From IMG/VR virus record IMGVR_UViG_3300028556_000026, positions 1 through 36,764 of that record: a DNA stretch of 36,764 nucleotides. One strand, 5' to 3'. Source of the stretch: a virus. Made by a program: the position numbers and the translations under genes. Under the pieces are notes generated by a model that was given only the letters and a program-made list of their open reading frames with translations, made no database searches and was not told where the DNA came from. Below are positions 9,173 through 34,621 of the stretch, in pieces. How positions within the stretch are numbered: the stretch's first letter is position 1; the number at the start of each line of letters is the position of its first letter.

Positions 9173-9192
9173 CGGGAAACCGCAAAAGATTA

Positions 9193-9225
9193 GGGGGTGG
9201 GCTATGCTCATCCCCCTTTTTATTT
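9193..9225 (+). terminator. Terminator after the mini-ORF
   Basis: GGGGG-TGGGC (9193-9202), loop TAT, GCTCA-t-CCCCC (9206-9216) with one bulged T, then TTTTT. Confidence 0.78.
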
Positions 9226-9238
9226 ATCCACTTGTTTG

Positions 9239-9270
9239 CACTTTACTATTTTACAAGTAAAGTGTAAGAT
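9239..9270 (+). promoter_or_regulatory. Early promoter with embedded operator palindrome
   Basis: TTTACT (9242-9247), 17 bp, TAAGAT (9265-9270). CACTTTAC (9239-9246) and GTAAAGTG (9257-9264) are perfect inverted repeats covering the -35 and spacer, so a dimeric regulator could block polymerase. The promoter at 17186 is nearly identical. Confidence 0.72.
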
Positions 9271-9300
9271 ATATGTATTACTAGATAACAAGCAATTTTT

Positions 9301-9765: not shown

Positions 9766-10443
9766 ATGGCACAAGAAGAAAAAGTTGAAATCAAAAGCAT
9801 TGAAGTTATACAAACCGAACTCCTACCGCTACAAACGGAAGTTGTGACGTTTAAGGATCAGGCTGAGAAAATGATCATCAAGACTGACGCGGATTACGAA
9901 GTAGCGAACAATCTGGCCGGAGTTGTAAATAGCAAAGGCAAGTCTATCGACACAATGCGTAAATTCCTAGTCGGCCCACTCAACGCGCACGTGGATAGCA
10001 TTAATGCTATCTTCATGCCCCAGGTAAAAGAAGCCGATGCGATCGTGAAAACGATCAAGGCAAAGATGGGTGCGTACTTTGACGAAAAAGAAACGGCCAG
10101 ATTGAAAGAAGAAAAGCGCCTGCAGGATATCCGCGACAAAGCAGATGCGAAACGCGCTGAAGCCGGAAAAGAAGCCATCGCCGAGCCTGTACGTGAAGTT
10201 GCGCCGGTAGCAAAGACGGTGGTCACAGCAGTTGGTAAGTCATCAATTCGCAAGACCTGGGAACACGAGATTGTCAGTATCGATCAACTTCCTGAAGACA
10301 TCAAAAAGTTAGTATTCGCTGAAGCATACCGCAAAGGCATCATAGCCACGATCGTACAGAAAATGGTTGATGCCGGAGTACGCGATATGACCGGCGTACG
10401 CATATACGAGAAGTCCAACGTAGTACTCGGCAAGGGTAAATAG
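9766..10443 (+). CDS. Phage recombination-associated coiled-coil protein
   Basis: This 225-residue protein resembles phage proteins usually encoded just before RecT/ERF annealing proteins. The N-terminal about 120 residues are helical and charged (a coiled coil with KEEKRLQDIRDKADAKRAEA). The C-terminus has the hallmark IRKTWEHEIVSIDQLPEDIKKLV...VRDMTGVRIYEKSNV, matching the common W-x-x-x-V-x-x-x-x-x-L-P...GV-x-x-Y pattern. Its exact role is not known in any phage; association with single-strand annealing is inferred from gene order. The leader motif AAGTAACAAGC lies 11 nt before ATG although no obvious -35/-10 pair precedes it. Confidence 0.65.
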   Translation: MAQEEKVEIKSIEVIQTELLPLQTEVVTFKDQAEKMIIKTDADYEVANNLAGVVNSKGKSIDTMRKFLVGPLNAHVDSINAIFMPQVKEADAIVKTIKAKMGAYFDEKETARLKEEKRLQDIRDKADAKRAEAGKEAIAEPVREVAPVAKTVVTAVGKSSIRKTWEHEIVSIDQLPEDIKKLVFAEAYRKGIIATIVQKMVDAGVRDMTGVRIYEKSNVVLGKGK

Positions 10444-10469
10444 TTATCCCCTGGCCGGAAGTTTTACAC

Positions 10470-10498
10470 TTTACTATTTCATTATAAAGGAGTAAAAT
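10470..10498 (+). promoter_or_regulatory. Early promoter of the recombination genes
   Basis: TTTACT (10470-10475), 17 bp, TAAAAT (10493-10498). TTACACTTTACT and AGTAAAATGTAA form a looser palindrome with a 15-bp spacer. The leader carries AAGTAACAAGC at 10515-10525, 10 nt before the recT start. Confidence 0.72.
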
Positions 10499-10535
10499 GT
10501 AAGTATTATAAATTAAGTAACAAGCAAATATATTT

Positions 10536-11399
10536 ATGGCAGAAATTAAAAAAAGTTTGAAAGAGGAGATCGTACTATTGCTCACCGAGGACATCGGAAA
10601 ACCGGAGTTCAAGGGCCTATGTACGGCTCAAAATATCGATGTATTCGCATCGTATTGTCAGCGCCTGCTTATTGAAAAAGACAAGCAGGGAAAAGAAAAA
10701 AACCCATGGATGAAACTCAAGACGGCCGAAGCGCTGTCCGAGTTATTCCGCCGAGTATCTACAGAGGGCTTGGTGTTTGATGGTAAGCACATCACACTCC
10801 AAAACATAGGCATCAGTTACGACTATGTTGCATATAAAAATAAGATGCTCCTAGCATACCCGGAGAGTAAGATCGATATGGATGTAGTCAAAGAGGGCGA
10901 CACATTTACGGCCGGAAAGGAAAACGGCATGGTGGTGTATAAGCACTTGATAAAAGATGCGCTTCAGTCAGCAGATGCAAAGACGATCACCGGCGCATAC
11001 TGCGTACTCACAAACAAGCGCGGATCATTCCTAACTGTTCTCAGTAAAGAAGACATCCAAAAACACAAAAAGGTGGCCAAGACTTCCATGATTTGGGATG
11101 CCTGGTTTAAAGAAATGGTACTCAAGACGGTTTTGAAAAAGGCCTGTAAGTATCACTTCGATGATATCTTCGAGGGAATGAATGAGATCGACAACGAGCA
11201 AATAGATCTCTCGCACGTAACCGTTCTTGATGATATAGAGCCATCAAAAGTTGCCGAGGTAATTAAAAACATAGAGGGCTATACGGTACTCGCAGAACTC
11301 CAGGCCTACTATAAGGGCCTTGCACCGGAGTTTATAAAAAACGATGACGTATTCGAGGCCTATAACGCTCAAAAGGAAATATGCAAACCTACGAAATAA
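10536..11399 (+). CDS. recT: RecT-family single-strand annealing protein
   Basis: The 287-residue protein matches RecT recombinases, which coat single-stranded DNA and anneal it to complementary strands. Signature parts are LKTAEALSELFRRVSTEGL near the N-terminus, GAYCVLTNKRGSFLTVLSKEDIQKHKKVAKTS in the middle (about residues 150-180) and IWDAWFKEMVLKTVLKKACKYHF (about residues 185-207), where W...M..KT.LK is strongly conserved in the family. The nuclease partner (YqaJ type) follows with a 19-nt overlap and SSB after that, a complete phage recombination unit. It has its own promoter and the leader motif. Such systems repair and concatenate phage DNA during replication. Confidence 0.88.
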   Translation: MAEIKKSLKEEIVLLLTEDIGKPEFKGLCTAQNIDVFASYCQRLLIEKDKQGKEKNPWMKLKTAEALSELFRRVSTEGLVFDGKHITLQNIGISYDYVAYKNKMLLAYPESKIDMDVVKEGDTFTAGKENGMVVYKHLIKDALQSADAKTITGAYCVLTNKRGSFLTVLSKEDIQKHKKVAKTSMIWDAWFKEMVLKTVLKKACKYHFDDIFEGMNEIDNEQIDLSHVTVLDDIEPSKVAEVIKNIEGYTVLAELQAYYKGLAPEFIKNDDVFEAYNAQKEICKPTK

Positions 11400-12004
11400 T
11401 CGAGGGCGAGCAAAAAACCGATGAATGGCAAAGACTCCGCGAGGGAGTAGCAGTCACCGGATCCAACGCTAAAAAGGTTAAAGGTACCGGCAACGCCTAC
11501 CTTTACGAAACCCTGGCCAAGATGACCACGGTGCGACCTGAAAAGGAAGCATACGGCGAGCATATTGATCGCGGTAACGAGTTGGAGCCGGAAGCACGCA
11601 AGGCCTACGAAAAAGCAACCGGCCAAAAGGTGCGCGAAGTTTCATTCATTCGCAACGACCGATACGGCATCTCGCCTGACGGACTAGTGATGAAAAACAA
11701 AACGCAGATCAAGAAGTTGATCGAGTGTAAGGCCCCGGATACGAACAACCACATCCGATACCTGATCGAAAATACGAAGAAGGCCCCGGCAGAACACATG
11801 GATCAGATCATTCACGGCTTCATAGTTTGTGATGACGTAGATGAGATTGATTTTGTATCGTACTGCCCAGTGTTCAAATTCAAACCGCTTTTGATCGTAA
11901 CCGTACGCCGTATGGATGTCATGGTTGAGATCGCAAGCACAAAGATCCAATATCAAAAGTTCGTCGAGAAATTGGATAAACATTACTCAGATTTAATTTT
12001 ATAA
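11381..12004 (+). CDS. YqaJ-like recombination exonuclease
   Basis: This 207-residue nuclease belongs to the YqaJ/lambda-Exo fold (PD-(D/E)XK). Visible motifs are KTDEWQRLREGVAVTGS (about residues 11-27), the GNELEPEARKAYEKATG helix with its conserved glutamate, YGISPDGLV (D at about residue 100) and LIECKAP (E and K at about 114 and 116), which together form the metal site. It would resect double-stranded ends 5' to 3' to give single strands for RecT. The start overlaps recT by 19 nt, and AAGGAA upstream is one of the few SD-like sites in the genome. SSB follows 2 nt downstream. Confidence 0.92.
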   Translation: MQTYEIIEGEQKTDEWQRLREGVAVTGSNAKKVKGTGNAYLYETLAKMTTVRPEKEAYGEHIDRGNELEPEARKAYEKATGQKVREVSFIRNDRYGISPDGLVMKNKTQIKKLIECKAPDTNNHIRYLIENTKKAPAEHMDQIIHGFIVCDDVDEIDFVSYCPVFKFKPLLIVTVRRMDVMVEIASTKIQYQKFVEKLDKHYSDLIL

Positions 12005-12006
12005 AT

Positions 12007-12450
12007 ATGTATTTAAATAAAGTTCAACTAATAGGAAACCTGACCCGCGACCCGGAATTGAAATCAACCCCATCGGGCGCAAAGGTCTGCTCATTCTCTC
12101 TAGCCACAAATGAGACATTCAAAGATGCCCAGGGGCAGAAAAAAGAAACGGTGGAGTTTCACAACATCGTAGTTTGGGGAAAGACCGCCGAGAACGTAGC
12201 GCAGTATATGAAAAAGGGATCGCAGATCTACATAGAGGGTAAACTGCAAACCCGATCATGGGATAAAGACGGTGTGAAGCATTACCGCACCGAAATAAAC
12301 GCCCTGCACGTACAGTTTGGCCACAAGCCTAGCGGTACCGCTTCAGTAAGCGCTCCGGCCCACACAGAGGCACCAGGGGGCGAAGACCAGGGCCTAGATA
12401 CGATCGAGTATCCAGGTGGCGGTGACGGAATGGAAGACATCCCTTTTTAA
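12007..12450 (+). CDS. ssb: Single-stranded DNA-binding protein
   Basis: This 147-residue SSB has an OB fold at residues 1-105 (MYLNKVQLIGNLTRDPE, FSLATNE, EFHNIVVWGKTAENVAQYMKKGS, YIEGKLQTRSW). A flexible Gly/Pro-rich tail and an acidic tip, MEDIPF, follow; the tip is the standard contact for host replication and repair proteins. It protects single strands during replication and works with RecT and the exonuclease encoded just before it. The MYLNK start and overall wording resemble SSBs I associate with Patescibacteria, which is one of the few host hints in the window. Confidence 0.97.
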   Translation: MYLNKVQLIGNLTRDPELKSTPSGAKVCSFSLATNETFKDAQGQKKETVEFHNIVVWGKTAENVAQYMKKGSQIYIEGKLQTRSWDKDGVKHYRTEINALHVQFGHKPSGTASVSAPAHTEAPGGEDQGLDTIEYPGGGDGMEDIPF

Positions 12451-12453
12451 GCC

Positions 12454-12798
12454 ATGAATAAGAAAAAGATCACACAAAAAGAAGCAATCTTTTATACGCT
12501 ATACCAAGCGTTCAAGGAAACGCCTGGCGAGTATATCCCGGTCTTTAAATTCATGGGTGAGGTGTACGCCAAAGAGGTGGGCCTATGGGGATATGTAAGC
12601 CACGAATGCTCGGCGCGCGCATCAGAGATCAAGAGTTCAAACCCGCACCTGATAGAAAGCATCACGATCACCGGGAAGAGTGGAGCCAAGTATTACGGCT
12701 ATCGCATCAACCCGAACACAGAAAAAGGAACGCTACCCGATCAGTCGCTCGTAGCCTTCTATAATAAAATAAAGCGTCAGCGCGAATTGCTACCATGA
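12454..12798 (+). CDS. Unknown protein with winged-helix-like pattern
   Basis: This 114-residue protein is basic, with the order KITQKEAIFYTLYQAFKETPGEYIPVFKFMGEV, then VSHECSARASEIKSSNPHLIESITITGKSGAKYYGYRI. That reads as helices followed by a strand-turn-strand wing, as in small DNA-binding winged helices of phages and mobile elements, in which an ARASEI-x-x-x-N-P helix precedes a GYRI strand. It lies between ssb and an unknown gene, 3 nt after the ssb stop, and its TGA stop overlaps the next start (ATGA). A role in recombination or replication is suggested only by context. Confidence 0.55.
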   Translation: MNKKKITQKEAIFYTLYQAFKETPGEYIPVFKFMGEVYAKEVGLWGYVSHECSARASEIKSSNPHLIESITITGKSGAKYYGYRINPNTEKGTLPDQSLVAFYNKIKRQRELLP

Positions 12799-15891: not shown

Positions 15892-17133
15892 ATGGAAACA
15901 AAAACAGAAGAAAAAACAATCATTGTAAAAAACCCGGCCGGATTACCGACCATCAGTTTTAAAGACCTCAAGGCAAAGTACGAGGCAAACGCACTCAAGC
16001 AGAAAAAGGATCGTGAAGTGGGGGATCTAAAGGCCTCAATTCTATCCCTGGGCTTCTCTGTGCCGTTGTTTATATGGGAAAAGGGAAAGTACCTCGCAGA
16101 CGGCGCAGGACGGCTCCTAGCCCTAGAAATGCTCGAATACGAGGGTTATACAATACCAGACCTGCCCTATGTACCACTCGAAGCCAAAGACAAAAAGGAA
16201 GCCAAGCGCCTCACTCTGGTCATCTCTTCGCAGTACGGTTTAATCACGCCGGAAAGTATCGGCGAGTTTATGCTCGATATGAATGAGATCGATCTCGGAT
16301 TTGTAAATATTGCGGGCATAGATTTGGATGAGGTAGATTGGAAGCCAGGCAAAAAAGAATATGAAGTCGAAGAAGACGAGGCCCCGGAAGTACCAAAGAT
16401 CGCCAAGAGTAAAACAGGCGATATGTACCAACTCGGCCGACACCGCGTTCTCTGCGGTGATGCGCTAGACAATACTGCAGTCACTACTTTGATGGCTAAT
16501 GCGAAAGCGGATCTATTTCTAACCGATCCGCCATACAATGTCGCCTACGTTGGAAAAACAAAAGATGCGCTCACTATCAAAAACGACAAGCAGACCGATG
16601 AGAAGTTCCGGGAGTTCCTACGCTCTGCTTTTATAAATGCAAATCTATTTTTGAAAGAGGGTGGAGTGTTTTATATTTGGCACGCTGACTCCGAGGGCTA
16701 CAACTTCCGGGGCGCTTGCAAAGATGTAGAATGGCAGATCCGCGAGTGTTTGATTTGGGTAAAAAATTCATTGGTGATGGGCCGACAGGACTACCATTGG
16801 AAGCACGAGCCATGCCTATACGGATGGAAAGACGGCAAGGCGCACGTTTGGAATACCGACAGAAAACAAACAACCGTCATGGAGTTTGATCGACCGTCTA
16901 AAAGCGCAGAACATCCTACAATGAAACCGGTCAAAATGATCGCGTACCAGGTGCAGAATAATACCGTAGAGGGAAACATCGTCTTGGATACGTTCGGTGG
17001 AGCAGGATCAACTTTGATGGCCTGCGAGCAGACCGGCCGTACTTGCTACACGATGGAAATAGATCCCCGCTACGTTGATGTGATTGTAGAACGATGGGAA
17101 AATCTAACAGGGAAAAAGGCAAAGAAGTTATAG
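15892..17133 (+). CDS. ParB-domain / adenine-type DNA methyltransferase fusion
   Basis: This 413-residue protein joins an N-terminal ParB/Srx-like domain (about residues 15-150; DLKASILSLGFSVPLFIWEKGKYLADGAGRLLALEML) to a DNA methyltransferase (about 165-413). The catalytic motif DPPY is at about 212-215 and the SAM-binding FGGAGST at about 368-374. This order (DPPY first) is the beta class, which usually makes N6-methyladenine or N4-methylcytosine. The fusion is found in phages and may guide or hydrolyse nucleotide for the methylase; it is not a full partition ParB. No matching restriction enzyme is seen, so it is probably an anti-restriction or regulatory methylase. An MT-A70 methylase and a SAM synthetase follow later in the operon. 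Confidence 0.92.
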   Translation: METKTEEKTIIVKNPAGLPTISFKDLKAKYEANALKQKKDREVGDLKASILSLGFSVPLFIWEKGKYLADGAGRLLALEMLEYEGYTIPDLPYVPLEAKDKKEAKRLTLVISSQYGLITPESIGEFMLDMNEIDLGFVNIAGIDLDEVDWKPGKKEYEVEEDEAPEVPKIAKSKTGDMYQLGRHRVLCGDALDNTAVTTLMANAKADLFLTDPPYNVAYVGKTKDALTIKNDKQTDEKFREFLRSAFINANLFLKEGGVFYIWHADSEGYNFRGACKDVEWQIRECLIWVKNSLVMGRQDYHWKHEPCLYGWKDGKAHVWNTDRKQTTVMEFDRPSKSAEHPTMKPVKMIAYQVQNNTVEGNIVLDTFGGAGSTLMACEQTGRTCYTMEIDPRYVDVIVERWENLTGKKAKKL

Positions 17134-19937: not shown

Positions 19938-20027
19938 ATGCGTTGCATCAAATGTAGAAAATCGAGGAAAACGAAGAAAGGTCTTTGCAAAGTGTGTCGT
20001 CAAGACGATCATGAAGTTACCAAATAA
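19938..20027 (+). CDS. 29-residue mini zinc ribbon
   Basis: ATG 19938 to TAA 20027 encodes a very basic 29-residue peptide with RCIKC near the start and LCKVC about 14 residues later, a complete CxxC-x12-CxxC zinc-ribbon core and little else. The start has the A/T-rich pre-ATG context of this genome (AAATATATG), and it overlaps the next gene's start by 17 nt. Such mini-ribbons occur in phages, often with unknown roles in RNA or protein binding. Confidence 0.5.
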   Translation: MRCIKCRKSRKTKKGLCKVCRQDDHEVTK

Positions 20028-20520
20028 AATAATTGTTTTCATTTTAACTATTGCATTGCTCTCGGTTACGATAAATCTATCACTACCAAAAAGAGCACAG
20101 GGCATCCAGGAAGTAAAAATTGAAAACATACAAACCATCACCTCGAAAGATCACGCCGTAGAGTTAGCAAAATCTATCGCGCTCATAGAGACAGGTGGAA
20201 CAATGGACTGCTCTATTATAGGGGGCAACGGCGAGAGAGGATGTCATCAATACTCTCCCGGAACGTGGGCATCTTATTCAAAAGATGTTCTTGGCTATGT
20301 AGCAAAACAAACCCCGGCCAACGCGCAAAAAGTGACGGAGGGAAAGATGCGCGAGTTTATAAAGCAAGGCCTCACTGATCGTCAAATCTTTTTAATATGG
20401 AACCAGGGAAGTACTGGCCAATGCCGAAGAGGTACCAACTCCAAAGGGGTACACTACGACTCATGTGCGTATGTGGCCACGGCCCTAAAAATACTCCAGG
20501 AAGTTATGCACACCGGATAG
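20011..20520 (+). CDS. Exported lysozyme-like (transglycosylase-type) protein
   Basis: This 169-residue protein has an N-terminal signal or anchor (basic start, then IIVFILTIALLSVTINL, about residues 7-24) and a lysozyme-like domain: AKSIALIETGGTMDCSIIGGNGERGCHQYSPGTWASYSKDVLG. E60 in the A-L-I-E-T-G-G motif fits the catalytic glutamate of soluble transglycosylase-like folds, and GCHQYSPGTW matches their G-x-x-Q-x-x-P-x-T-W signature. Cysteines at about 66, 78, 138 and 151 may form disulphides. It would cut glycan strands outside the membrane. Unusually, it is encoded in the early region, about 13 kb from the lysis genes, so it might serve cell-wall remodelling, superinfection exclusion or surface passage, not lysis. 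Confidence 0.7.
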   Translation: MKLPNKIIVFILTIALLSVTINLSLPKRAQGIQEVKIENIQTITSKDHAVELAKSIALIETGGTMDCSIIGGNGERGCHQYSPGTWASYSKDVLGYVAKQTPANAQKVTEGKMREFIKQGLTDRQIFLIWNQGSTGQCRRGTNSKGVHYDSCAYVATALKILQEVMHTG

Positions 20521-20595: not shown

Positions 20596-21147
20596 ATGGT
20601 AAAAAAGACAGGTAAAAAGTTCAAGATTATTTATGCAGATCCACCATGGGCCTACCGGAACATGGGAAATATCCAGGCAACGGCCAACTCGCACTATGCG
20701 ACTATGACACAAAAGGATATTTGCGATCTTAAGGTTGCCGATATAGCGGATGACAATTCCATCCTATTCCTATGGGCAACGTTTCCAAAGATCCAGGAAG
20801 CGCTAGACGTGATGAAGGCCTGGGGATTTCAGTATAAAACGGTCGGCTTCACGTGGGTAAAGAAAAACAAAAGCGGGTCAAATTTCTTCGGAGTAGGTTG
20901 GTACACAAAGTCCAACGCTGAAGTTTGTTTGATCGGGATCAGAGGTAAAGCGCCAAAGGTCAGCAATAGTGTGTCGAGCATTATTGAAACGGTACGCACT
21001 GAACACAGCGCCAAGCCTGCGATAGTAAGAGAGAAGATCGTACAGTTCTGCGGTGACATTCCAAGAGTAGAGTTGTTTGCACGTACCCGGACAAAGGGAT
21101 GGAAGATATGGGGCAACGAGATTAAAAACGATATTAAATTAAAGTAA
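20596..21147 (+). CDS. MT-A70 family adenine methyltransferase
   Basis: This 183-residue enzyme has DPPW at residues 15-18 (KIIYADPPWAY), the catalytic motif of MT-A70 methylases that make N6-methyladenine. Other family segments are HYATMTQKDICDL, ILFLWAT, GFTWVKKNKSG, the LIGIRGKAP block, HSAKPAIVREKIV and VELFARTRTKGWKIWGNE. Bacterial and phage members mostly act on DNA. No restriction nuclease is nearby. It is the first gene behind an early promoter and shares the operon with a SAM synthetase, which would make its cofactor. The stop overlaps the next start (TAATG). Confidence 0.94.
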   Translation: MVKKTGKKFKIIYADPPWAYRNMGNIQATANSHYATMTQKDICDLKVADIADDNSILFLWATFPKIQEALDVMKAWGFQYKTVGFTWVKKNKSGSNFFGVGWYTKSNAEVCLIGIRGKAPKVSNSVSSIIETVRTEHSAKPAIVREKIVQFCGDIPRVELFARTRTKGWKIWGNEIKNDIKLK

Positions 21148-21393: not shown

Positions 21394-22371
21394 ATGAAAA
21401 TAAAAACTGCGGAGTGTGTAACTCCAAGACATCCTGACAAGTTGTGTGACCGCGTAAGTGATGCGATCCTAGATGCTTGTCTATTACAAGATCCAATGAG
21501 TCGCGTAGCAATTGAAACCATGGGTGGTCATGGGATCGTAAGTGTTACCGGAGAACTCACAACAAAAGCGTACATTAACGTGCGCGAAATAGTACAAAAT
21601 ATAGTCGGTAATCAATACGGCGTACAAGTAAATATTGTATCGCAAAGCCCTGAAATAGCGGGTGGAGTTGATACTGGCGGGGCCGGAGATCAAGGCATCA
21701 TGGTGGGCTATGCCTGCGATGACAATGAAGCGATGATCCCACAAGAAATTTACCTCGCACGATCACTCGCAAAGTATATTTTTACTAAATATCCATACGA
21801 TGGAAAAACACAGATCACCATCGATGAGAATAAAAAAATTACTACCATAGTGGCGAGTTTTCAAAACGTAAAAAAAGATGATCTCATTAAAGAGATTACT
21901 GATTGGGTACTTCGTGAAAGTCCATCAAAACCTACTGAGACATTCCACATCCATGCTAACCCGGCCGGGGATTGGAGCCAGGGCGGTTTTGAAGCCGACA
22001 CAGGCGTTACAGGGCGCAAGTTGGCGGTAGATTGCTACGGCCCACAGATCCCAATTGGTGGGGGTGCATTCAGCGGAAAGGACAGCACAAAGGTAGATCG
22101 CTCCGGGGCGTATATGGCCCGTAAAATGGCGGTGCATTATTTGAAGCACCTGGGCGCTCATGAGGTAATGGTAAAAATAGCATACGCGATCGGAGTAGCA
22201 GAGCCGGTCATGGTCAGCGTAGAAGCCGATGGAAAAGAGATCGAAATAAATGATGGTTGGGATCTTACTCCAAAGGGTATTATTAGTTTGTTAGATCTAC
22301 GGAAACCACAATTTGAAGAGACCGCACAGTGGGGTCACTTCGGTAATGGTTTTGTTTGGGATCAAGAATAA
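21394..22371 (+). CDS. metK: S-adenosylmethionine synthetase (methionine adenosyltransferase)
   Basis: This 325-residue enzyme makes S-adenosylmethionine from methionine and ATP. Conserved motifs are RHPDKLCDRVSDAILDA (H13, D15, K16), GELTTKAY, GGAGDQGIMVGYACDD (about residues 95-110), DTGVTGRKLAVDCYG, GGGAFSGKDSTKVDRSGAYMARK (the glycine-rich loop), AYAIGVAEPV and a complete C-terminus (LDLRKPQFEETAQWGHFGNGFVW). Bacterial MetK is usually about 380-400 residues; this one is shorter through trimmed loops, not a lost end. It lies one gene after an MT-A70 methylase, and another DNA methylase is upstream, so it may supply cofactor for phage DNA methylation or offset SAM loss. Phage metK genes are uncommon. 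Confidence 0.95.
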   Translation: MKIKTAECVTPRHPDKLCDRVSDAILDACLLQDPMSRVAIETMGGHGIVSVTGELTTKAYINVREIVQNIVGNQYGVQVNIVSQSPEIAGGVDTGGAGDQGIMVGYACDDNEAMIPQEIYLARSLAKYIFTKYPYDGKTQITIDENKKITTIVASFQNVKKDDLIKEITDWVLRESPSKPTETFHIHANPAGDWSQGGFEADTGVTGRKLAVDCYGPQIPIGGGAFSGKDSTKVDRSGAYMARKMAVHYLKHLGAHEVMVKIAYAIGVAEPVMVSVEADGKEIEINDGWDLTPKGIISLLDLRKPQFEETAQWGHFGNGFVWDQE

Positions 22372-22373
22372 TT

Positions 22374-22625
22374 ATGTTTGAAAAACAAGAAACAATGATC
22401 TGTACGATATGCGGTACTGCAGGGAAACCAAAAAAAGAAACGCGCGGAAGTTTTGCCATTGAGATCATTCTTTGGCTTTGCATGGTACTACCCGGACTTT
22501 TGTATTCGATATGGCGCGCAAGTAGCAAGTATGACGTATGTAAATATTGCGGAAATAAAAATATTGTTCCAATTAATTCACCAGTCGGACAAGAACTACT
22601 TGTTAAATTCCGACCAAAAGAATAA
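22374..22625 (+). CDS. Zinc-ribbon membrane protein (LITAF-like layout)
   Basis: From ATG 22374 the protein has 83 residues. An N-terminal CTICG knuckle (C10, C13) is followed by a hydrophobic segment (IEIILWLCMVLPGLLYSIW, about residues 28-46) and a second knuckle CKYCG (about residues 55-58). Two half-ribbons flanking a membrane-inserted hairpin is the layout of LITAF-like domains, which sit on the inner face of membranes. I chose this ATG since it is 2 nt after the metK stop; a start at 22356 would overlap metK. Role unknown, possibly membrane-related host takeover. Confidence 0.58.
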   Translation: MFEKQETMICTICGTAGKPKKETRGSFAIEIILWLCMVLPGLLYSIWRASSKYDVCKYCGNKNIVPINSPVGQELLVKFRPKE

Positions 22626-22628: not shown

Positions 22629-22787
22629 ATGAATTATCACGAGGACATTCCCGCGATTTGTCAAAACAAAGATTGCGAAAATTACAAAGCTTTTGAATTG
22701 TACGATGTCGATGAGGTAAAAGATCCACGTGGCAAAAGTTATGTCATCTGCTTCTATTGCAAAGAAAAGATCATCATCGAAGACTAA
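22629..22787 (+). CDS. Small zinc-binding protein
   Basis: ATG 22629 to TAA 22787 encodes 52 residues with C11-x4-C16 and C41-x2-C44 (ICFYCK) flanking an acidic middle, which looks like a small zinc ribbon. It begins 3 nt after the preceding gene. Its last 47 nt overlap the most likely start region of the HNH gene in another frame, so either this gene's end or the HNH start is slightly different from what is given here. No known function. Confidence 0.5.
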   Translation: MNYHEDIPAICQNKDCENYKAFELYDVDEVKDPRGKSYVICFYCKEKIIIED

Positions 22788-23274
22788 TGAAGTCGGCGTT
22801 TATTTTGGGGCTAGAAATAAAGTTCTCACTACAAAAAAAAGAAAAGGAAAAAACAATGAGATCGTGGGTGCTATGTATGCAATGTATAAGACCCACAGAT
22901 CGCTTGCCTATATCGGGAAAGTTTATCATCGGACACCGCAATGCATCTTCTATCTTTTCAAACGCCGGGGTTACCAACTCCGACCAAAAAAGATGGAGGG
23001 CCTGCAGGAAATTGATGGCATAAAGTTTACTCTAAACAAAGCGGGCAGTATGCGGGGAACACTCAACGGAAAAAGGATCCTGATGCACCACTACGTTTGG
23101 GAAAAAAAGCATGGCAAAATACCGACCGACCATTGCATTTTTCACAAGGATGGCAATAATCAAAACAACCGAATAGGCAACCTGGGCCTATTGCCACGAT
23201 GCCAGGTAGCGCACCATTTCAACCCGGAAAACCACAACCAATATACAAACAAAAAACGGCATGGTAAAATGTAA
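22741..23274 (+). CDS. HNH endonuclease with N-terminal helix-turn-helix
   Basis: This is a homing-type HNH nuclease of about 177 residues. The N-terminal part (IVGAMYAMYKTHRSLAYIGKVYHRTPQCIFYLFKRRGYQLR) is a helix-turn-helix used to find DNA sites. The HNH domain is MHHYVWEKKHGKIPTDHCIFHKDGNNQNNRIGNLGLL, with the paired histidines and Asn-rich metal site. Such genes are often mobile and free-standing between phage genes. The start is uncertain: ATG 22741 overlaps the zinc-ribbon gene by 47 nt, whereas ATG 22873 would cut into the first helix of the HTH. I keep the longer form. It ends where a new promoter (TATACA-17-TAAAAT) begins. Confidence 0.8.
   Translation: MSSASIAKKRSSSKTNEVGVYFGARNKVLTTKKRKGKNNEIVGAMYAMYKTHRSLAYIGKVYHRTPQCIFYLFKRRGYQLRPKKMEGLQEIDGIKFTLNKAGSMRGTLNGKRILMHHYVWEKKHGKIPTDHCIFHKDGNNQNNRIGNLGLLPRCQVAHHFNPENHNQYTNKKRHGKM
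23242..23270 (+). promoter_or_regulatory. Promoter at the end of the HNH gene
   Basis: TATACA (23242-23247), 17 bp, TAAAAT (23265-23270), followed by GTAAG as in the other early promoters. The 36-nt leader precedes the gene at 23313. Confidence 0.6.
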
Positions 23275-23312: not shown

Positions 23313-23594
23313 ATGAATACAATCACTAAATATTTTGTTTTTCCTGCAGGAAAACCAGAAGAGAAGTTTGAGGTACTCCCTCATACAGCCGGAGACGGCA
23401 CATTCTCTTTTGCGAAGAAGGAAACATCACAAACCGGTAATATCAATGACTGGTATGATGCAAGCCCACTCTTCACTTGGGAAAACAAAAACAAGGATGG
23501 CGCTTTCGTAAACAATGACACCGAGCAATTGGATGTCACTGGCGAATACGACATTCAAAAAGAAGAGGTGCCAGTTGGCGAAAAAGGCGAATAA
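23313..23594 (+). CDS. Unknown acidic single-gene transcript protein
   Basis: I do not recognise this 93-residue protein. It is acidic, with a beta-like N-terminal half (TKYFVFPAGKPEEKFEVLPHTAGDGTFSFAKKE) and a disordered, Glu/Gly-rich end. It is transcribed from its own promoter and closed by a terminator 22 nt after its stop, so it is a stand-alone early unit. Small, acidic, separately expressed phage proteins are often host-interaction factors (inhibitors or DNA mimics), but nothing in the sequence shows which. Confidence 0.55.
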   Translation: MNTITKYFVFPAGKPEEKFEVLPHTAGDGTFSFAKKETSQTGNINDWYDASPLFTWENKNKDGAFVNNDTEQLDVTGEYDIQKEEVPVGEKGE

Positions 23595-23615: not shown

Positions 23616-23645
23616 AAAAAGCCCTAGCCATGGGCTTTTTGTTTT
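23616..23645 (+). terminator. Terminator before the glycan cassette
   Basis: AAAAAGCCC (23616-23624), loop TAGCCAT, GGGCTTTTT (23632-23640), then GTTTTG. The A/T-flanked stem could stop transcription from both sides. Confidence 0.82.
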
Positions 23646-23653
23646 GTTATAAT
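23645..23653 (+). promoter_or_regulatory. Extended -10 promoter of the glycan cassette (leaderless)
   Basis: TGTTATAAT (23645-23653) is a perfect extended -10. The hexamer ends 6 nt before ATG 23660, so the predicted transcript starts at the start codon. It overlaps the T-run of the preceding terminator. Confidence 0.62.
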
Positions 23654-23659
23654 TATGGT

Positions 23660-24241
23660 ATGGAAAACAACAAGCTGAGTATAGTAATTATGGCCCATCC
23701 AAAACGTAAACACCTTATCCCCTATCTGAAAGAAAAACTTGGTGACGTTCCGGTAGTGTGGGATGAAAAAAACAACCTATGGGATACCTGCAAGCGCGCA
23801 TGGCAAACCATAGATAAAAATTGCGAGTTCGGTTTGGTGATCCAAGACGATGCCCTGGTAACTTCTAACTTCCGGGAAAAGGCCGAGGCTTGTTTGAAAA
23901 GTGATCGCGTATATTCTTTTTATTTGTCGCGCCTACTTTCTAACAGGGTACGCCTGGCCAAGAAGCGCGAATATAAAACCATCCGCAGTAGCATGATTTT
24001 TAATGAGGTGGCTATTTGCATGAAGACCTGCCACATAGACGAGATGATCGCTTTCTGTGATGAGCGCGAGGCTACTACGGATCAGTTGATTGGTATATGG
24101 GCAAGGCAGAGGGGCAAAAAAATATACTACCCTATCCCCTCGCTTACTTCGCACCGGGATGACGAGCCGAGCATTTACAAAGAAGTCTACAAAAAACCCC
24201 CTGCAGTTAGGGAGCGCGTAGCAATAGAATTTTATGAATAA
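23660..24241 (+). CDS. Glycosyltransferase
   Basis: The 193-residue protein has a GT-A-like pattern: LSIVIMAHPKRKHLIPYLKEKLG at the start, the linker WDEKNNLWDTCKRAWQTI, the metal/sugar-nucleotide motif VIQDDALVT (about residues 70-78) and SLTSHRDDEPSIY near the end. This wording (VMAHP...W-D...RAW...QDDA) resembles glycosyltransferases found in several actinobacteriophages, some of which decorate virions. ATG 23660 is chosen because a perfect extended -10 ends 6 nt upstream. It is the first gene of a three-gene, overlapping cassette. Sugar donor and acceptor are unknown. Confidence 0.78.
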   Translation: MENNKLSIVIMAHPKRKHLIPYLKEKLGDVPVVWDEKNNLWDTCKRAWQTIDKNCEFGLVIQDDALVTSNFREKAEACLKSDRVYSFYLSRLLSNRVRLAKKREYKTIRSSMIFNEVAICMKTCHIDEMIAFCDEREATTDQLIGIWARQRGKKIYYPIPSLTSHRDDEPSIYKEVYKKPPAVRERVAIEFYE

Positions 24242-24926
24242 GAAAACAAACAACACCGCTTTTATAATTAGGATGCACTTTGCGGAAAATGATCCACGAT
24301 GGATTTGGCGCTATGCGTACTTTGCGAGCATGGTACTTCCAAAACTATTAACCCAGGACAACCAAGACTTCGATATTTGTATTCGGGCAAACCCATGGCA
24401 CGCTGATTGTCTCCGGGCGTTATCGGAAAAAATAAAAGTGTTTGATGTAGCACCGGCCAAGAAAGATTTTATTAAGGATGGGTACTTGGAAAAGTCTAAG
24501 GTTTATTTTATTGATTTTGTAGATTTCAAAGACACCAGGGGCCTAGATAAATATCCAATACAGATCGGGATCGACTCTGACGATATGATCTTACGCGAGG
24601 ACTTTGTAACCCGCATTAAATCGGAAGTGGCCAAGCGCCCGGACAAGTCACTGCACATCTCTTTTCAACCGTATATATTCCATGCTCCTACGCTCCGAAA
24701 TTATAGATGCAATTTTCACTATGGCCCGGAAAAGGGATCGCCGGTATTCGTACTCTACCAACCAAAAAAGACGGACTTCATGTACGCATACGAAGACTCG
24801 CATTTGAAACTGCCATCCTATATGCAACAGGCCATTCGGATCAACGAGGGCTATTGCTCTTATACGGTGCATGATTTTAATTCGTCGACACGCCTTAATC
24901 GTAATGCGCGACAAACCTATATATGA
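24234..24926 (+). CDS. Putative rhamnosyltransferase-like glycosyltransferase
   Basis: The 230-residue protein resembles the 'putative rhamnosyl transferase' family. Features are FIIRMHFAENDPRWIWRYAYFASMVLPKLLTQDNQDFDICI at the N-terminus, then IQIGIDSDDMILREDFVTRI (about residues 110-130) with the DxDD metal motif, and SFQPYIFH afterwards. It overlaps the preceding gene by 8 nt and the next by 4 nt, so the three proteins are made together and probably act on one glycan. The true sugar may not be rhamnose; the family name comes from similarity. No signal peptide, so it works in the cytoplasm or at the inner membrane face. Confidence 0.78.
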   Translation: MNKKTNNTAFIIRMHFAENDPRWIWRYAYFASMVLPKLLTQDNQDFDICIRANPWHADCLRALSEKIKVFDVAPAKKDFIKDGYLEKSKVYFIDFVDFKDTRGLDKYPIQIGIDSDDMILREDFVTRIKSEVAKRPDKSLHISFQPYIFHAPTLRNYRCNFHYGPEKGSPVFVLYQPKKTDFMYAYEDSHLKLPSYMQQAIRINEGYCSYTVHDFNSSTRLNRNARQTYI

Positions 24927-25660
24927 AAAAAGTAATTTTTTATCGCTATCCGCATCCGACTAACGTAGGGGATAATCTCACACAACATCTCTTGCCTTTT
25001 TTCAGGCCTGATTTAGAGTTTCAATTAGTACCGGAACAGGGCGGGGGAAAGTTGCTCGGAGTTGGTAGTATCATGCGCGTTTTGAAAGAGGGGGATCTAG
25101 TATGGGGATCGGGCATAATGCGCGAAACTGACGAATTCCCCCAGGCAAAGGCCTGCAAGTTCCTAGCAGTACGCGGAAACCTAACACGGGGCATCCTGGA
25201 GCGATATAGGGCAAATGTACCGCAAGTCTACGGTGACCCAGCCCTATTACTGCCTTTGATGTACTCCCCTACCCCACTCATTACGCATGAAGTCGGGATA
25301 ATTCCCCATTTTGTGGATGAGAAGATGCTAACGAGTAGAGTAGGGGATAGACTCGCCAAGGGTAGATCCTGGAAACAGATCAACATCTGCCAGGACTATG
25401 AGAACTTTGTAAACGAGGTATTGACCTGCAAGTACATCATCTCTAGTTCCCTGCACGGTTTGATCATCGCAGAAGCATACGGCATCCCGGTAGAATGGGT
25501 GGTACTAAGCGACAAGGTACTCGGACAAGGTTTCAAATTTAGAGACTACCTAAGCGGAACAGGCAGACGGCCACAAGGCCCCGGCCCATTCCCTATTTTA
25601 GATCCGGCCATACTGAAGGATCGACAGAATGGCTTATTAAAAGCATTGAAGAAATTATAG
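24923..25660 (+). CDS. Polysaccharide pyruvyltransferase family protein
   Basis: The 245-residue enzyme fits the polysaccharide pyruvyl transferase family (CsaB/ExoV type), which adds a pyruvate ketal from phosphoenolpyruvate onto a sugar. Motifs include HPTNVGDNLTQHLL, LVWGSGIM, LAVRGNLTRGILE, VYGDPALLLPLM, VGIIPHFVDE and IISSSLHGLIIAEAYGIPVEW, whose SSLHG is the family hallmark. Pyruvylated sugars on secondary wall polymers anchor S-layer proteins in some bacteria, so this gene could alter the host surface or a glycan on the virion. It overlaps the upstream glycosyltransferase by ATGA. It is a very unusual phage gene. Confidence 0.88.
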   Translation: MKKVIFYRYPHPTNVGDNLTQHLLPFFRPDLEFQLVPEQGGGKLLGVGSIMRVLKEGDLVWGSGIMRETDEFPQAKACKFLAVRGNLTRGILERYRANVPQVYGDPALLLPLMYSPTPLITHEVGIIPHFVDEKMLTSRVGDRLAKGRSWKQINICQDYENFVNEVLTCKYIISSSLHGLIIAEAYGIPVEWVVLSDKVLGQGFKFRDYLSGTGRRPQGPGPFPILDPAILKDRQNGLLKALKKL

Positions 25661-25854: not shown

Positions 25855-25883
25855 TATACTTTTTTATTGTTTAGCAGTAAAAT
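25855..25883 (+). promoter_or_regulatory. Late promoter of the packaging genes (leaderless)
   Basis: TATACT (25855-25860), 17 bp, TAAAAT (25878-25883). The -10 ends 6 nt before ATG 25890, predicting a leaderless terminase transcript. GCACTATACT parallels GCACTTTACT of the early promoters. Confidence 0.72.
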
Positions 25884-25889
25884 GTATTT

Positions 25890-26465
25890 ATGAAAGCAAG
25901 CGAACGACGTGCGCTAAAACTAAAGAAAGACGGAGAGAAGAAAGAGCCAGGTACTATACCGGCCCCTGTTGTTGCCCCTGTAGTTAATAAAGAAACGAAT
26001 AATGAAACACCTGCCATAGAGAAGATCTCCAAGGATGGCACAAAGCGCGGGCTAAATCCTAACAGTACAAAAAACTTAAAGCCGATCAAGCCAGGGGAAG
26101 TACGCAATCCAAACGGCCGACCAGAGGGCGCATTGAGTTGGGATACACGCATAGAATTAAACATGACTATTTTGGCGCAAAAGTACGTCAGAGATTTCAA
26201 TAAGAAAAACCCGAAGAAGGCGATCAAGATCGAAGAGGTAGACATGGAGAGTGATATTTTTCAGCAATATATAAACAAAGCCCGCAATGGGAACGATAAG
26301 ATCCTGCTCCACTTTATGGATAAGAGATACGGCAGGCCATCGCAACCGATCGTTGTTACCGGGAAAGATGGCGATCCTGTGGAGTACACGATCCGCGTAA
26401 AAGAATACGAGGACGAGATCCTGCAGGAAGAGAATAAGTGGTTTGAAAGCGATACTAAAAAATAA
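25890..26465 (+). CDS. terS: Terminase small subunit-like protein (DUF5681 type)
   Basis: This 191-residue protein has a basic N-terminal tail, a Pro/Val-rich linker and the segment LKPIKPGEVRNPNGRPEGALSWDTRIELNM (about residues 65-95), the DUF5681 signature found in proteins encoded directly before large terminases. The rest is helical (FQQYINKARNGNDKILLHFMDKRYGRPSQP). It is likely to recognise phage DNA for packaging. It starts 6 nt after a perfect -10 box and is followed 2 nt later by the large subunit. The N-terminal region may be a helix-turn-helix-free DNA-binding tail. Confidence 0.7.
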   Translation: MKASERRALKLKKDGEKKEPGTIPAPVVAPVVNKETNNETPAIEKISKDGTKRGLNPNSTKNLKPIKPGEVRNPNGRPEGALSWDTRIELNMTILAQKYVRDFNKKNPKKAIKIEEVDMESDIFQQYINKARNGNDKILLHFMDKRYGRPSQPIVVTGKDGDPVEYTIRVKEYEDEILQEENKWFESDTKK

Positions 26466-27938: not shown

Positions 27939-27944
27939 TATAAT
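27939..27944 (+). promoter_or_regulatory. -10 box for leaderless start of the portal gene
   Basis: TATAAT ends 7 nt before ATG 27952. TTGGTT 18 bp upstream is a weak -35. Confidence 0.5.
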
Positions 27945-27951
27945 AGAAACT

Positions 27952-30033
27952 ATGAAAAAGAAAAATCAAAACTTCTTCCAACGCATCGGTAACGCGCTCG
28001 CAGGTATGCGACAAAAGTCTGTCAACTTTGTATCGCTTTCAGGTGGATCAGGGTTTAATGGTTTAGAGAGTTTTTACGACTCACTCAATTTGCAAACGTT
28101 CCGGGAGTCGCTCTACCTATTTATTGGGGTAAGTATGATCCGCGAAACAGTATCGAGCATCCCATTGGAGATGTACCAAATAAAAAACAAGCAGGGTGAT
28201 GTAGAGCAGATCTACGATGACCCTTTTCTTGATCTATTGGAGCGCCCTAACGATATGCAGACACAAAAAGAATTCTGGAAACTCGCTGTTGCATACTACT
28301 TGCTCGCAGGCGAGGCGTTCTGGTATTTAGAGCGCGAGGCTCCTGGTGCCGTTCCAAGTGCGATGGTAAATATGCGCCCGGACAGTGTGCAGATCCTTTT
28401 CTCTGCAGATCAGAAAACAATCATCGGCTATGAGTTCATCCAAACAAACGGCCAAACAGTAAAGATCCCGGTAATGGATGTTTTACATATAAAAAATATT
28501 GACCCTATTGATCCTGTACGCGGTATCGGAGTTATACGCCCCGCAACTAAGCGCATCGCTACTGAAAAGCAAGCGAGTGAACACCAGGCAAACACATTTA
28601 AAAATCAAGGCAGGCCCGACATTGCTGTTTTCACAGAGGCGGATGTCACTGACGAGCAAATAGAAGATGCACAAATAAAATGGCAAAAGAAATTCGGCCC
28701 GGACAGAGGATCACAGTTGGCTCTATTCGGTGGTGGCAAAACTACGGTGCAGACTTTAAATGCAAACCCTAAAGACATGGACTTCATGCCAACCATGAAC
28801 TTCTTACGCGATGACATTCTCGCATCGTTACATATTCCAAAAGCGATGCTTACAAGTGATGATGTTAACCTGGCCAACTCAAAGACCGCGCGTATAAATT
28901 ACATCAAAGAGGGATGCTTGCCTGTACTTGATACGTTCATCGATATCATCAACAATAAGTTTTTAAATGATCTAGATCAGAATAGATTTGTAACGTACGA
29001 AAATCCAGTCAACGAGGATCGCGATATGCTACTCACTGAAGCAGTTCAACTAAAAGACAAAGGTATCATCACAATCGACGAGGCACGCGCCCTTCTTAAC
29101 TACGAGCCGATCGATGGTGGAGATATTTTGCAACCTGGAACATCTCCTGCATCTGCGATCACGCTGGCTTTGAAAAATGTCCGACTAAAAAAGATGGCAA
29201 AACGAGTTATGTTAAAACGCCCACTACTTTATAAAAAGTTTGTGGCCGTGGAAGCAGTAGCGAAACTATACGTGGCAGAGAAGAGTGTTAAGCGTTCCCG
29301 CAATTCTGTTTTTAATACTCCCGAATTGAAAGATGCCTACATCAAAGCATTCAACAAGAACATAGATCAGAAAGCGCAGACGTTTCATTCCGAGGTTGTC
29401 GTTTACAACGAGGGATTTGCAAAACGTATCATCACACACATGGAAAAGATGGGAATAAACCCACAATCATTTTTCAACGTAGCCGAAGAGATGCAGACGG
29501 CCAAGGGTATATTCAATCCACTTATGAAGAATATGTTTTCAAAGATTGGCCAGGAAACTCTAGACAACGTGGCTAAAGGTTTCTCTACTAAAGCATCCGA
29601 GCAGTTTCATACTCCAAAGGAAATGCTCCAGGCCCTTGAATTACGCGCTGAATTCTTTATTGGCTCAATGCTTGATACAGACTTCAAAGAGATGTCTAAA
29701 CTCATTGTGGCGGGCCTAGCAGACGGCAAGGGAGTGGAAGAGATCGGCCGAAACATCCGACAATACTTTGACGATATGAGTGTCGCGCGCGCACGTACGA
29801 TAGCCCGAACAGAAACAGGCCGTTTGGTTTCTCAAGCGACAAATGAAGCGTACAGACAGAGCGCAGTTGTTACCGGCAAGGAGTGGCTTACTGCAGGCGA
29901 TGACAAAGTTCGAGATGAGCACGTTTTAAACTCCGGTGTTATTGTCGACAACGGCGGAGTATTCCCCGATGGGGAACATTATCCAGGCGAGAGTAGTATC
30001 AACTGCAGATGTGCATTGGCACCCGCAGTTTAA
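27952..30033 (+). CDS. Portal protein fused to a MuF-type head morphogenesis domain
   Basis: The 693-residue protein combines two head proteins. Residues about 1-400 are an HK97-type portal (SLYLFIGVSMIRETVSSIPLEMY, LLERPNDMQTQKEFWKLAVAYYLLAGEAFWYL, HIPKAMLTSDDVNLANSKTARINYIKEG), the ring through which DNA enters. Residues about 560-693 are a Mu gpF-like minor head domain (SVARARTIARTETGRLVSQATNEAYRQS, ending in PGESSINCRCALAPAV with the typical NCRC motif). These are usually separate genes. The middle helical region links them. A TATAAT 7 nt before ATG suggests an extra leaderless promoter. The fused domain may deliver the MuF part to the portal vertex. Confidence 0.92.
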   Translation: MKKKNQNFFQRIGNALAGMRQKSVNFVSLSGGSGFNGLESFYDSLNLQTFRESLYLFIGVSMIRETVSSIPLEMYQIKNKQGDVEQIYDDPFLDLLERPNDMQTQKEFWKLAVAYYLLAGEAFWYLEREAPGAVPSAMVNMRPDSVQILFSADQKTIIGYEFIQTNGQTVKIPVMDVLHIKNIDPIDPVRGIGVIRPATKRIATEKQASEHQANTFKNQGRPDIAVFTEADVTDEQIEDAQIKWQKKFGPDRGSQLALFGGGKTTVQTLNANPKDMDFMPTMNFLRDDILASLHIPKAMLTSDDVNLANSKTARINYIKEGCLPVLDTFIDIINNKFLNDLDQNRFVTYENPVNEDRDMLLTEAVQLKDKGIITIDEARALLNYEPIDGGDILQPGTSPASAITLALKNVRLKKMAKRVMLKRPLLYKKFVAVEAVAKLYVAEKSVKRSRNSVFNTPELKDAYIKAFNKNIDQKAQTFHSEVVVYNEGFAKRIITHMEKMGINPQSFFNVAEEMQTAKGIFNPLMKNMFSKIGQETLDNVAKGFSTKASEQFHTPKEMLQALELRAEFFIGSMLDTDFKEMSKLIVAGLADGKGVEEIGRNIRQYFDDMSVARARTIARTETGRLVSQATNEAYRQSAVVTGKEWLTAGDDKVRDEHVLNSGVIVDNGGVFPDGEHYPGESSINCRCALAPAV

Positions 30034-30036: not shown

Positions 30037-30045
30037 TGATATAAT
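30037..30045 (+). promoter_or_regulatory. Extended -10 for leaderless start of the protease gene
   Basis: TGATATAAT (30037-30045) ends 6 nt before ATG 30052. Confidence 0.52.
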
Positions 30046-30051
30046 ATTTTT

Positions 30052-30729
30052 ATGAAAAAGTTGGCGCAAAAATTGTTAGACGAAAAAAGAAACAAGGCCG
30101 TAGAAATGGTCGGCAAAAAGTTTGAGATGAATATTACCCGAAAGGCGATAAGCATTGATGCCGAAAAGAAAACGGTCACGTTCGTAATGTCTACTTGCAA
30201 TGTAGATCGTCACGGTGACGTTATCAATCAGGACTCTTGGATCTTGGATTACTTCCGACAATCGCCAATGTTCTTTTTACAACATCGTTCCGATGAGTTT
30301 CCAATAGGAAAGTGGATCGATATTTCTCTACAACCTGATCCTGACAACATTGGTAAAAATATGCTCGTAGGTACCGCGCAATTTGCAACCGATATAAACC
30401 CGGAAGCCGACACAGCATTCAAAATGGTAGAGGGTGGATTTATGTCTGCCGTTTCCGTTGGATTTATTCCGCACCGAGTAGACTACGATGAGATCACTGA
30501 CAACTTTGTTTTGTATGACTGCGAACTTTTGGAATGTTCACTCGTTGGAGTAGGATCAAATCGCCAGGCACTCGCAAAAGAAAATGATGAGGCCCGCGAA
30601 AAGATGATCGAGGCAAAGGAAGTATTGGATGCTAAAATAAAAGCGACAGTAAACAACAACCTAGTCATCTCCCATTTGAAAGCCCGCGAAAGTTTGAATA
30701 AAGCGATCCGGCTGATGAAAGAATTTTAA
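30052..30729 (+). CDS. HK97-family prohead protease
   Basis: The 225-residue serine protease (peptidase U35/S78 family) matures the capsid. Key parts are VTFVMSTCNVDRHGDVINQDSW (about residues 43-64), FFLQHRSDEFPIGKW with the catalytic histidine (about 78), GGFMSAVSVGFIP with the catalytic serine (about 130-133) and LLECSLVGVGSNRQAL. It would cleave the N-terminal scaffold region of the capsid protein encoded next. The C-terminal 40 residues are helical and may keep it inside the prohead. It lies between portal and capsid genes, the usual order. Confidence 0.93.
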   Translation: MKKLAQKLLDEKRNKAVEMVGKKFEMNITRKAISIDAEKKTVTFVMSTCNVDRHGDVINQDSWILDYFRQSPMFFLQHRSDEFPIGKWIDISLQPDPDNIGKNMLVGTAQFATDINPEADTAFKMVEGGFMSAVSVGFIPHRVDYDEITDNFVLYDCELLECSLVGVGSNRQALAKENDEAREKMIEAKEVLDAKIKATVNNNLVISHLKARESLNKAIRLMKEF

Positions 30730-34213: not shown

Positions 34214-34219
34214 TAAAAT
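34191..34219 (+). promoter_or_regulatory. Promoter inside the gp10-like gene (leaderless)
   Basis: TTGATG (34191-34196), 17 bp, TAAAAT (34214-34219). The -10 ends 6 nt before ATG 34226. Confidence 0.55.
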
Positions 34220-34225
34220 ATATTT

Positions 34226-34621
34226 ATGATAGAACAATACATCTACAACAAGGTCACAGAAGATCCAACACTGCAGGAAATATTATCGGCAGGCAGTGAT
34301 GACTTTTATCTTTATCCCGGAGTTATTCCGCGCGGTATAGAAGACTTCGAGGTGGCCGTAACATTCACTACGATCATCACAACCGATGTATATCCGGCAT
34401 CTAAATCAGTGAACGTGCAGTTTAATATCTTTGGAAAAAAACACGCAGACGTAGCAGAGGTGGCACAGGCCCTTAGTGATCTTTTTAATGAAGACAACAA
34501 CAATTCAGATACCGGGGTCGATGTTGTTTTCTCGATCAGGAAGTCCGAGAGCGATCTAGGTTTCAATTTCGATGACAACCTGTATCAGAGAGAGGCGACT
34601 TATTATTTTAAATTGAGATAA
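34226..34621 (+). CDS. Tail terminator-like protein
   Basis: This 131-residue protein has the layout of siphovirus tail terminator proteins (lambda gpU / DUF3168 group). It has a helical N-terminus (EQYIYNKVTEDPTLQEILSAG), beta strands (DFEVAVTFTTIITTDVYPASKSVNVQFNIFGKKHADVAEVAQALSDLF) where a strand-helix pair fits the family, then VVFSIRKSESDLGFNFDDNLYQREATYYFKLR. It would cap the tail tube before joining the head. The call rests on length, pattern and position between the gp10-like gene and the major tail protein. Confidence 0.62.
   Translation: MIEQYIYNKVTEDPTLQEILSAGSDDFYLYPGVIPRGIEDFEVAVTFTTIITTDVYPASKSVNVQFNIFGKKHADVAEVAQALSDLFNEDNNNSDTGVDVVFSIRKSESDLGFNFDDNLYQREATYYFKLR

Follow-up and report, generated by a model that had tools for sequence, protein, structure and literature searches.

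We found three overlapping genes (gp1, gp2 and gp3) in the genome of a small tailed phage whose hosts are probably ultra-small Patescibacteria. The genes are predicted to form an operon that builds a glycan and caps it with pyruvate. Virion proteins are the most likely acceptors, a reading to which, taken as a whole, we give an even chance. That the three enzymes act on one glycan, whichever its target, is quite probable. The stretch of DNA analysed (36,764 nt, hereafter the window) is a phage genome with a terminal repeat of 139 bases, which contains one mismatch. On the basis of this terminal repeat, the genome was judged to be probably complete and circular as assembled, with a length of about 36.6 kb. 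PHROG profiles matched a terminase, a portal fused to a Mu-F-like domain, a protease, an HK97-type capsid, connectors and tail proteins, as well as an endolysin, replication/recombination genes and two DNA methyltransferases. No integrase, repressor or other lysogeny gene was recognised by profile searches among the ORFs scanned in the window.

Concerning the remaining gene content, the two DNA methyltransferases (15892-17133 and 20596-21147) are accompanied by an S-adenosylmethionine synthetase (21394-22371; three Pfam domains, phrog_1569 E 6.9e-94); the phage appears to make the methyl donor for itself. A transglycosylase-like or Rpf-like protein with an N-terminal hydrophobic stretch is encoded at 20011-20520 (PF06737, E 4e-4, below the cut-off), in a gene separate from that of the amidase endolysin (6642-7229).

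The relatives of the large terminase subunit (TerL) point to Patescibacteria as the host. In a whole-genome profile search, the TerL profile of the phage group matched 30 of 287 Patescibacteria genomes at E<1e-60, compared with none of 297 Bacteroidota and none of 299 Pseudomonadota genomes; the comparison covered these three phyla, and most gp1 homologs belong to phages of a fourth, Actinomycetota. The phylum as used here is that of a Berkelbacteria genome. A pattern-level TerL scan of genome contigs gave no match, whereas the whole-genome profile search did. A Bacteroidota host, prompted by the cellular relatives of gp3 and by missing Shine-Dalgarno sites, was unsupported, as shown by the TerL counts above. 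The window also encodes a zinc-ribbon protein with a hydrophobic segment (22356-22625), which has a 46% homolog in the related phage L006 described below and a 50% homolog next to TerL in one of the Patescibacteria TerL loci (L124:862-1113). One Patescibacteria genome (G137, contig C3 269020-272006, L121) harbours a tandem pair of terminase large-subunit genes.

Three related phage contigs were used for comparison: L006 (IMGVR_UViG_3300034945_000003; 37,315 bp), whose TerL is 79% identical to that of the window, L005 (TerL 63%, capsid 69%) and L007 (TerL 70%). The features of the locus are as follows.

22729-23274, + strand: HNH endonuclease gene (PF13392, E 8.4e-12; 49% homolog in L006), flanking the slot on its left; in L006 it adjoins gp1 directly
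23313-23594: ORF of 93 residues between the HNH gene and the trio, with its own -10; absent in L006
23614-23642, + strand: terminator-like hairpin (11-bp stem with 5 G-C pairs, 7-nt loop, T-rich tail); absent in L006
23645-23653, + strand: TG-extended -10 element TGTTATAAT, 6 nt before the ATG at 23660, probable leaderless promoter of the trio
23660-24241, + strand: gp1, 193 residues, predicted GT-A glycosyltransferase, phrog_854/GT25-like, homolog of Che8 gp110
24234-24926, + strand: gp2, 230 residues, putative rhamnosyltransferase-type glycosyltransferase (PF11316) with a DSDD motif
24923-25660, + strand: gp3, 245 residues, member of the ketal pyruvyltransferase family PF04230
25664-25846, + strand: conserved 60-residue ORF containing Cys/His, between the glycan island and the small terminase gene; homologs at the same place in L006 (57%) and L005 (50%)
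25890-26465, + strand: presumed small terminase gene (terS), the right border of the variable slot, named from its position directly before TerL, with a weak DUF5681 match

The trio thus spans 23660-25660, with an 8-nt overlap between gp1 and gp2 and a 4-nt overlap between gp2 and gp3. These overlaps, the preceding hairpin and extended -10, and the motifs QDDA (gp1 Q62-A65), DSDD (gp2 114-117), SSLHG and YGDPALL (both gp3) had been pointed out in the initial annotation, and all are present. Homologs of terS are found at the same place in L005, L006 and L007. The gene has its own -10 (TAAAAT) 6 nt before the ATG, and this -10 is conserved in L006.

We then considered how the trio is expressed. 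No other promoter-like match in the region is as good as the TG-extended element at 23645-23653 (10/12). The total numbers of promoter-like (9, against 6.7 expected from shuffling) and terminator-like sites (5 against 3.1) were near chance. On the other hand, -10-like hexamers (TANNNT) lie 5-7 nt before the ATG at 10 of 45 gene starts, compared with 20 of 695 other ATGs (Fisher P 3e-6), and this genome-wide enrichment makes a leaderless start of the trio credible. No Shine-Dalgarno-like site preceded the ATG in any of the 45 window genes. Many window genes look leaderless, for example at 23645-23660, 25878-25890, 27940-27952, 30040-30052 and 34214-34226. A further element, AAGYAACAAG, is repeated at 7834, 9744, 10515, 17234 and 20576 (the last copy being AAGCACAAG), roughly 5-12 nt before the ATG of mostly early genes, and may represent either an early promoter or a translation signal of an unusual type.

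The trio had been proposed to be a separately expressed, moron-like unit. This holds for the window genome and not for L006, in which gp1 and the HNH gene overlap by 4 nt and neither the 93-residue ORF with its own -10 nor the hairpin is present. The trio's own promoter is therefore a feature of the window genome, not of the cassette, and the hairpin is most simply understood as ending the transcript of the inserted 93-residue ORF.

In L006, the same three genes occur in the same order and slot, both overlaps being 4 nt long; as in the window, the 60-residue ORF and terS come next. This conservation indicates that the arrangement is far beyond chance; a trio scattered and never co-located would have spoken against a functional unit. 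The proteins of the two phages are 53% (gp1), 65% (gp2) and 63% (gp3) identical. Third codon positions are only 31-38% identical, that is, saturated, whereas second positions are 69-79% identical, and judging from this pattern all three proteins are kept by purifying selection. At the protein level, a 5.3-kb fragment (L002) is identical to the window in TerL and in the 3' part of gp3.

The corresponding slots of the other relatives contain different glycan genes. L005 has a tandem pair of gp1 homologs (43 and 32%) together with a Caps_synth/Gly_transf_sug protein, an FkbM methyltransferase and an NTP-transferase-like protein, and no pyruvyltransferase was found in this slot. In L007 there is a Stealth-like protein, with the contig ending just beyond. 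Glycan enzymes thus lie at the terS-proximal end in four related phages, with at least three kinds of island and a gp1-type glycosyltransferase in three of them. The differing contents of L005 and L007 identify the slot next to terS, at the level of sequence, as a variable glycan island of the phage group. Despite these changes of the island, the 60-residue Cys/His ORF is retained in L005, L006 and the window. Recent horizontal import was not evident from composition, as the G+C content of the trio (45.4%) is not unusual for the genome (44.1%, sd 1.4).

The first protein, gp1, matches phrog_854 (labelled 'glucosyltransferase') over the full length of the profile (E 5.7e-28; residues 6-191 of 193 on positions 3-198 of 211). 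It aligns over its whole length with gp110 of mycobacteriophage Che8 (27% identity, hhalign probability 97.9, E 5.9e-13); gp1 matches GT25 weakly, and Che8 gp110 matches this family with an E-value of 1.2e-7. R16, D35, D63-D64, S161-L162 and H165 are invariant in gp1, its L006 counterpart, both L005 homologs, Che8 gp110 and pas35 of phiAsp2. The structure model is of moderate quality (pLDDT 75.5) and matches GT-A enzymes, several of which are protein glycosyltransferases (POMGnT1 and GalNAc-T2; TM about 0.5). A tblastn search identified gp1 homologs in 581 phage records, nearly all from mycobacterial and Gordonia phages. A single-sequence scan of the IMG/VR viral contigs gave no match, and an alignment scan refound L005 only. 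Neither gp1 nor gp2 was found in the 287 Patescibacteria genomes, which thus gave no sign of the cassette as a set of host genes.

The relatives of gp1 adjoin other glycosyltransferase or methyltransferase genes (Che8 108-110, phiAsp2 pas33-35 and Phendrix 79-80). In Gordonia phage Phendrix, genes 79-80 (a gp1 homolog and a GT2 partner) are part of the structural operon, flanked by the genes of the head-to-tail adaptor and of the major tail protein, and pas33-35 follow shortly after the tail genes of phiAsp2. In PMC12363180, which cites Freeman et al. 2023, Che8 gp110 and Corndog gp38 are named as essential for capsid glycosylation. Taking into account these reports on the homologs, we infer that gp1 is a putative capsid or tail-protein glycosyltransferase.

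The second protein, gp2, matches the Pfam family Rhamno_transf (PF11316; E 8.3e-6) at 25.9 bits, only just above the cut-off of 23, over profile positions 33-231 of 235. Its donor is possibly of the rhamnose type, the Pfam name itself being marked putative. The copy in L006 is 65% identical, and gp2 was seen only together with gp1 and gp3. A search of 50,697 phage records gave no match to gp2 even at E 1, and none was found in plasmids or in a single-sequence scan of the IMG/VR viral contigs. Within what could be searched of IMG/VR, the trio is rare. No homology was detected between gp2 and Che8 gp109 or the L005 ORF at 4424-5194.

The third protein, gp3, belongs to PF04230 (PS_pyruv_trans; E 2.3e-10). 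The conserved motifs of pyruvyltransferases are NxGD, RxxxS/T and an active-site His (PMC10629545), and in gp3 we find N14-V-G-D17, R84-G-N-L-T88 and H178. N14, G16, D17, R84 and H178 are invariant across 23 gp3 relatives. By motif, R84 and H178 correspond to R148 and H308 of CsaB, whose importance for phosphoenolpyruvate (PEP) was revealed by mutation (PMC10435577). The position of the second PEP arginine (CsaB R306, Pvg1p R337), which lies outside the three motifs of PMC10629545, is occupied in gp3 by Ser176 (S-S-L-H-G), as judged by motif spacing and not by superposition; a Ser at this position is nearly invariant in gp3 relatives. The AF2 model was confident (pLDDT 94.2). The top three Foldseek hits in the PDB were headed by SenB, another sugar-transferase-type enzyme, and include Pvg1p (5ax7, E 7.4e-4) and WbbZ (6x1l, E 1.8e-3), each with a probability of 1.00. 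These are both of the solved pyruvyltransferases and have a GT-B-like fold; the TM-scores were modest (0.49). Family, motifs and fold suggest that gp3 is a putative PEP-dependent pyruvyltransferase. The label CsaB given to it at first proved too specific, as gp3 scored 17.4 bits against an equivalog cut-off of 213.1 in TIGR03609.

The closest cellular relatives of gp3 come mostly from Bacteroidota genomes, and PF04230 is present in 50 of the 287 Patescibacteria genomes. In large phages, gp3-like PF04230 relatives are found within sugar clusters, and they also occur in Lak phages. Reading the context from sequence, we find one in L003, a contig of 234 kb, next to tail-fibre-like genes, others among glycosyltransferase, aminotransferase and sugar-synthase-like genes (L099-L101), and one within a structural region (L104). 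The presence of a pyruvyltransferase in a phage is therefore not in itself new. The cluster in L099, a 138-kb phage contig, appears to contain two pyruvyltransferase-like genes and a NeuB-like sugar synthase (8627-9442, 9896-10735 and 11795-12649).

The profile searches thus place all three proteins in glycan families, the models of gp1 and gp3 agree, and together with the synteny these results support the proposed role of the unit in building or capping a single glycan. In the mechanism we propose, gp1 would act as a cytosolic GT-A transferase that puts the first sugar on a structural protein, as reported for its homologs. A second, possibly rhamnose-type sugar would be added by gp2, and gp3 would cap the end with a pyruvate ketal from PEP, giving an acidic glycan end. 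Nucleotide sugars and PEP would be supplied by the host. The capped glycan would alter the charge of the particle, and it would hide or alter the features recognised by binding molecules of the host surface or of other origin. A variable slot next to terS is what would be expected if the glycan were under diversifying selection.

The initial annotation had left the target open between the virion and the host surface. We favour the virion because gp1 is a homolog of Che8 gp110, a membrane or flippase gene is absent, and no lysogeny gene was recognised. No membrane segment was found in the trio proteins (maximum 19-residue hydropathy 1.38). Several observations count against this target. Capsid and tail genes are conserved between relatives with different islands, and no acceptor visibly co-varies; the identity between gp1 and Che8 gp110 is low, and members of phrog_854 could act on other acceptors. 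In addition, the characterised pyruvyltransferases described in the literature searched act on cell-surface or secreted glycans, the phage one (PMC10629545) among them. Ser/Thr-rich capsid or tail-tube tails were considered as acceptors and none was evident, the capsid C-terminus showing no obvious Ser/Thr extension when compared with those of the related phages.

The main competitor is that the trio modifies a host surface glycan, with gp1 and gp2 extending and gp3 pyruvylating a lipid-linked or surface polymer, resulting in a receptor change and a superinfection block. WbbZ-Cv, the one tested phage pyruvyltransferase, does cap an O antigen (PMC10629545), the Klebsiella O2c cap is also made by two glycosyltransferases and one pyruvyltransferase (WbmVWX), the nearest cellular relatives of gp3 are mostly from Bacteroidota, and Patescibacteria phages have been reported to carry surface-sugar genes (PMC12911398). 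However, the trio lacks a membrane glycosyltransferase, a flippase and a lipid-carrier enzyme, gp1 groups with virion glycosyltransferases of actinophages, and with no integrase or repressor recognised there would be no lysogeny to protect. We consider a host-surface target a real but clearly less probable alternative.

The free variation of slot content between relatives, and the occurrence of gp1 homologs without gp2 or gp3 in L005 and the actinophages, would also fit three enzymes acting on separate substrates as mere neighbours in a moron region. This seems distinctly unlikely, as gp2 was found only with gp1 and gp3, and the overlapping, probably translationally coupled order has been kept at saturated silent divergence. 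That the glycosyltransferases hypermodify phage DNA and gp3 adds an acidic group to the DNA sugar, as the label of phrog_854, the two DNA methyltransferases and the S-adenosylmethionine synthetase might suggest, is highly improbable: no base hydroxymethylase, thymidylate-synthase-like or base-hypermodification gene, of which a divergent form is possible, was recognised in the scanned ORFs to provide a hydroxylated base for the sugar, and Che8 gp110, according to PMC12363180, acts on virion protein.

Returning to the virion as target, we can speculate further, with more doubt than hope, that the particles of this phage, probably one of Patescibacteria, are coated with a pyruvate-ketal-ended glycan imitating the pyruvylated polymers bound by cell-surface proteins. 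Such a coat might serve for attachment as a ligand, or might shield charge, at the surface of the ultra-small episymbiont or of the cell that partners it, and the terS-proximal slot would be an exchangeable 'glycan type' locus between related phages.

Glycosylation of phage virions has been experimentally shown for mycobacteriophages. The claim that no phage system with this trio had been described stands for the exact trio in the literature searched and fails for its parts, as virion glycosylation (PMC12363180) and an active phage-encoded glycosyltransferase/pyruvyltransferase pair, WbbYZ-Cv (PMC10629545), have both been described. No phage with pyruvylated particles was found in the literature searched, most subscription papers being outside its scope. 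Virion glycosylation and a phage pyruvyltransferase are each known; within the reach of our searches, what is new is that they are combined, that a phage encodes a protein of the gp2 type, that the island is exchangeable, and the host group, itself a probable one. If our reading is true, a phage with a probable Patescibacteria host would join those with glycosylated virions, and pyruvate capping would be added to the chemistry of virion glycosylation. A slot with different glycan enzymes would also provide a natural allelic series bearing on the purpose of a phage sugar coat where there is no antibody to evade.

Among known systems, the lysogenic gtr cassettes of temperate phages consist of the flippase GtrA, the bactoprenol glycosyltransferase GtrB and a membrane-bound Gtr, whereas the trio is without membrane segments and its phage without a recognised integrase or repressor. 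Phage DNA glucosylation needs a hydroxylated-base gene, and no match to such a family was found among the scanned window ORFs. CsaB of Paenibacillus alvei shares with gp3 the Pfam family and the PEP-binding Arg and His at corresponding motifs; the two differ in that gp3 lies far below the equivalog cut-off and, by spacing, has Ser176 where CsaB has R306. WbmVWX of Klebsiella O2c likewise combines two glycosyltransferases and one pyruvyltransferase in one three-gene locus, but is a bacterial surface polysaccharide locus, compared with the trio by pyruvyltransferase family motifs only. WbbY-WbbZ (Caudovirales phage BK049963.1; Klebsiella O1) resembles the trio in that a glycosyltransferase and a PEP-dependent pyruvyltransferase cap a glycan, and gp3 shares fold and motifs with WbbZ. 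On the other hand, WbbY is one large polymerase with two glycosyltransferase modules, whereas the trio has two small unrelated glycosyltransferases, and the known acceptor of WbbYZ is the LPS O antigen. Che8, whose host is Mycobacterium, differs in that genes 108 and 109 encode a GT2-methyltransferase and a GT2-like protein, a counterpart of gp2 is absent, and no pyruvyltransferase match was found among 108-110. Like the trio, however, Che8 108-110 are three overlapping glycan genes with an HNH gene close by, which together close the Che8 genome, and gp110 is homologous to gp1, both matching GT25.
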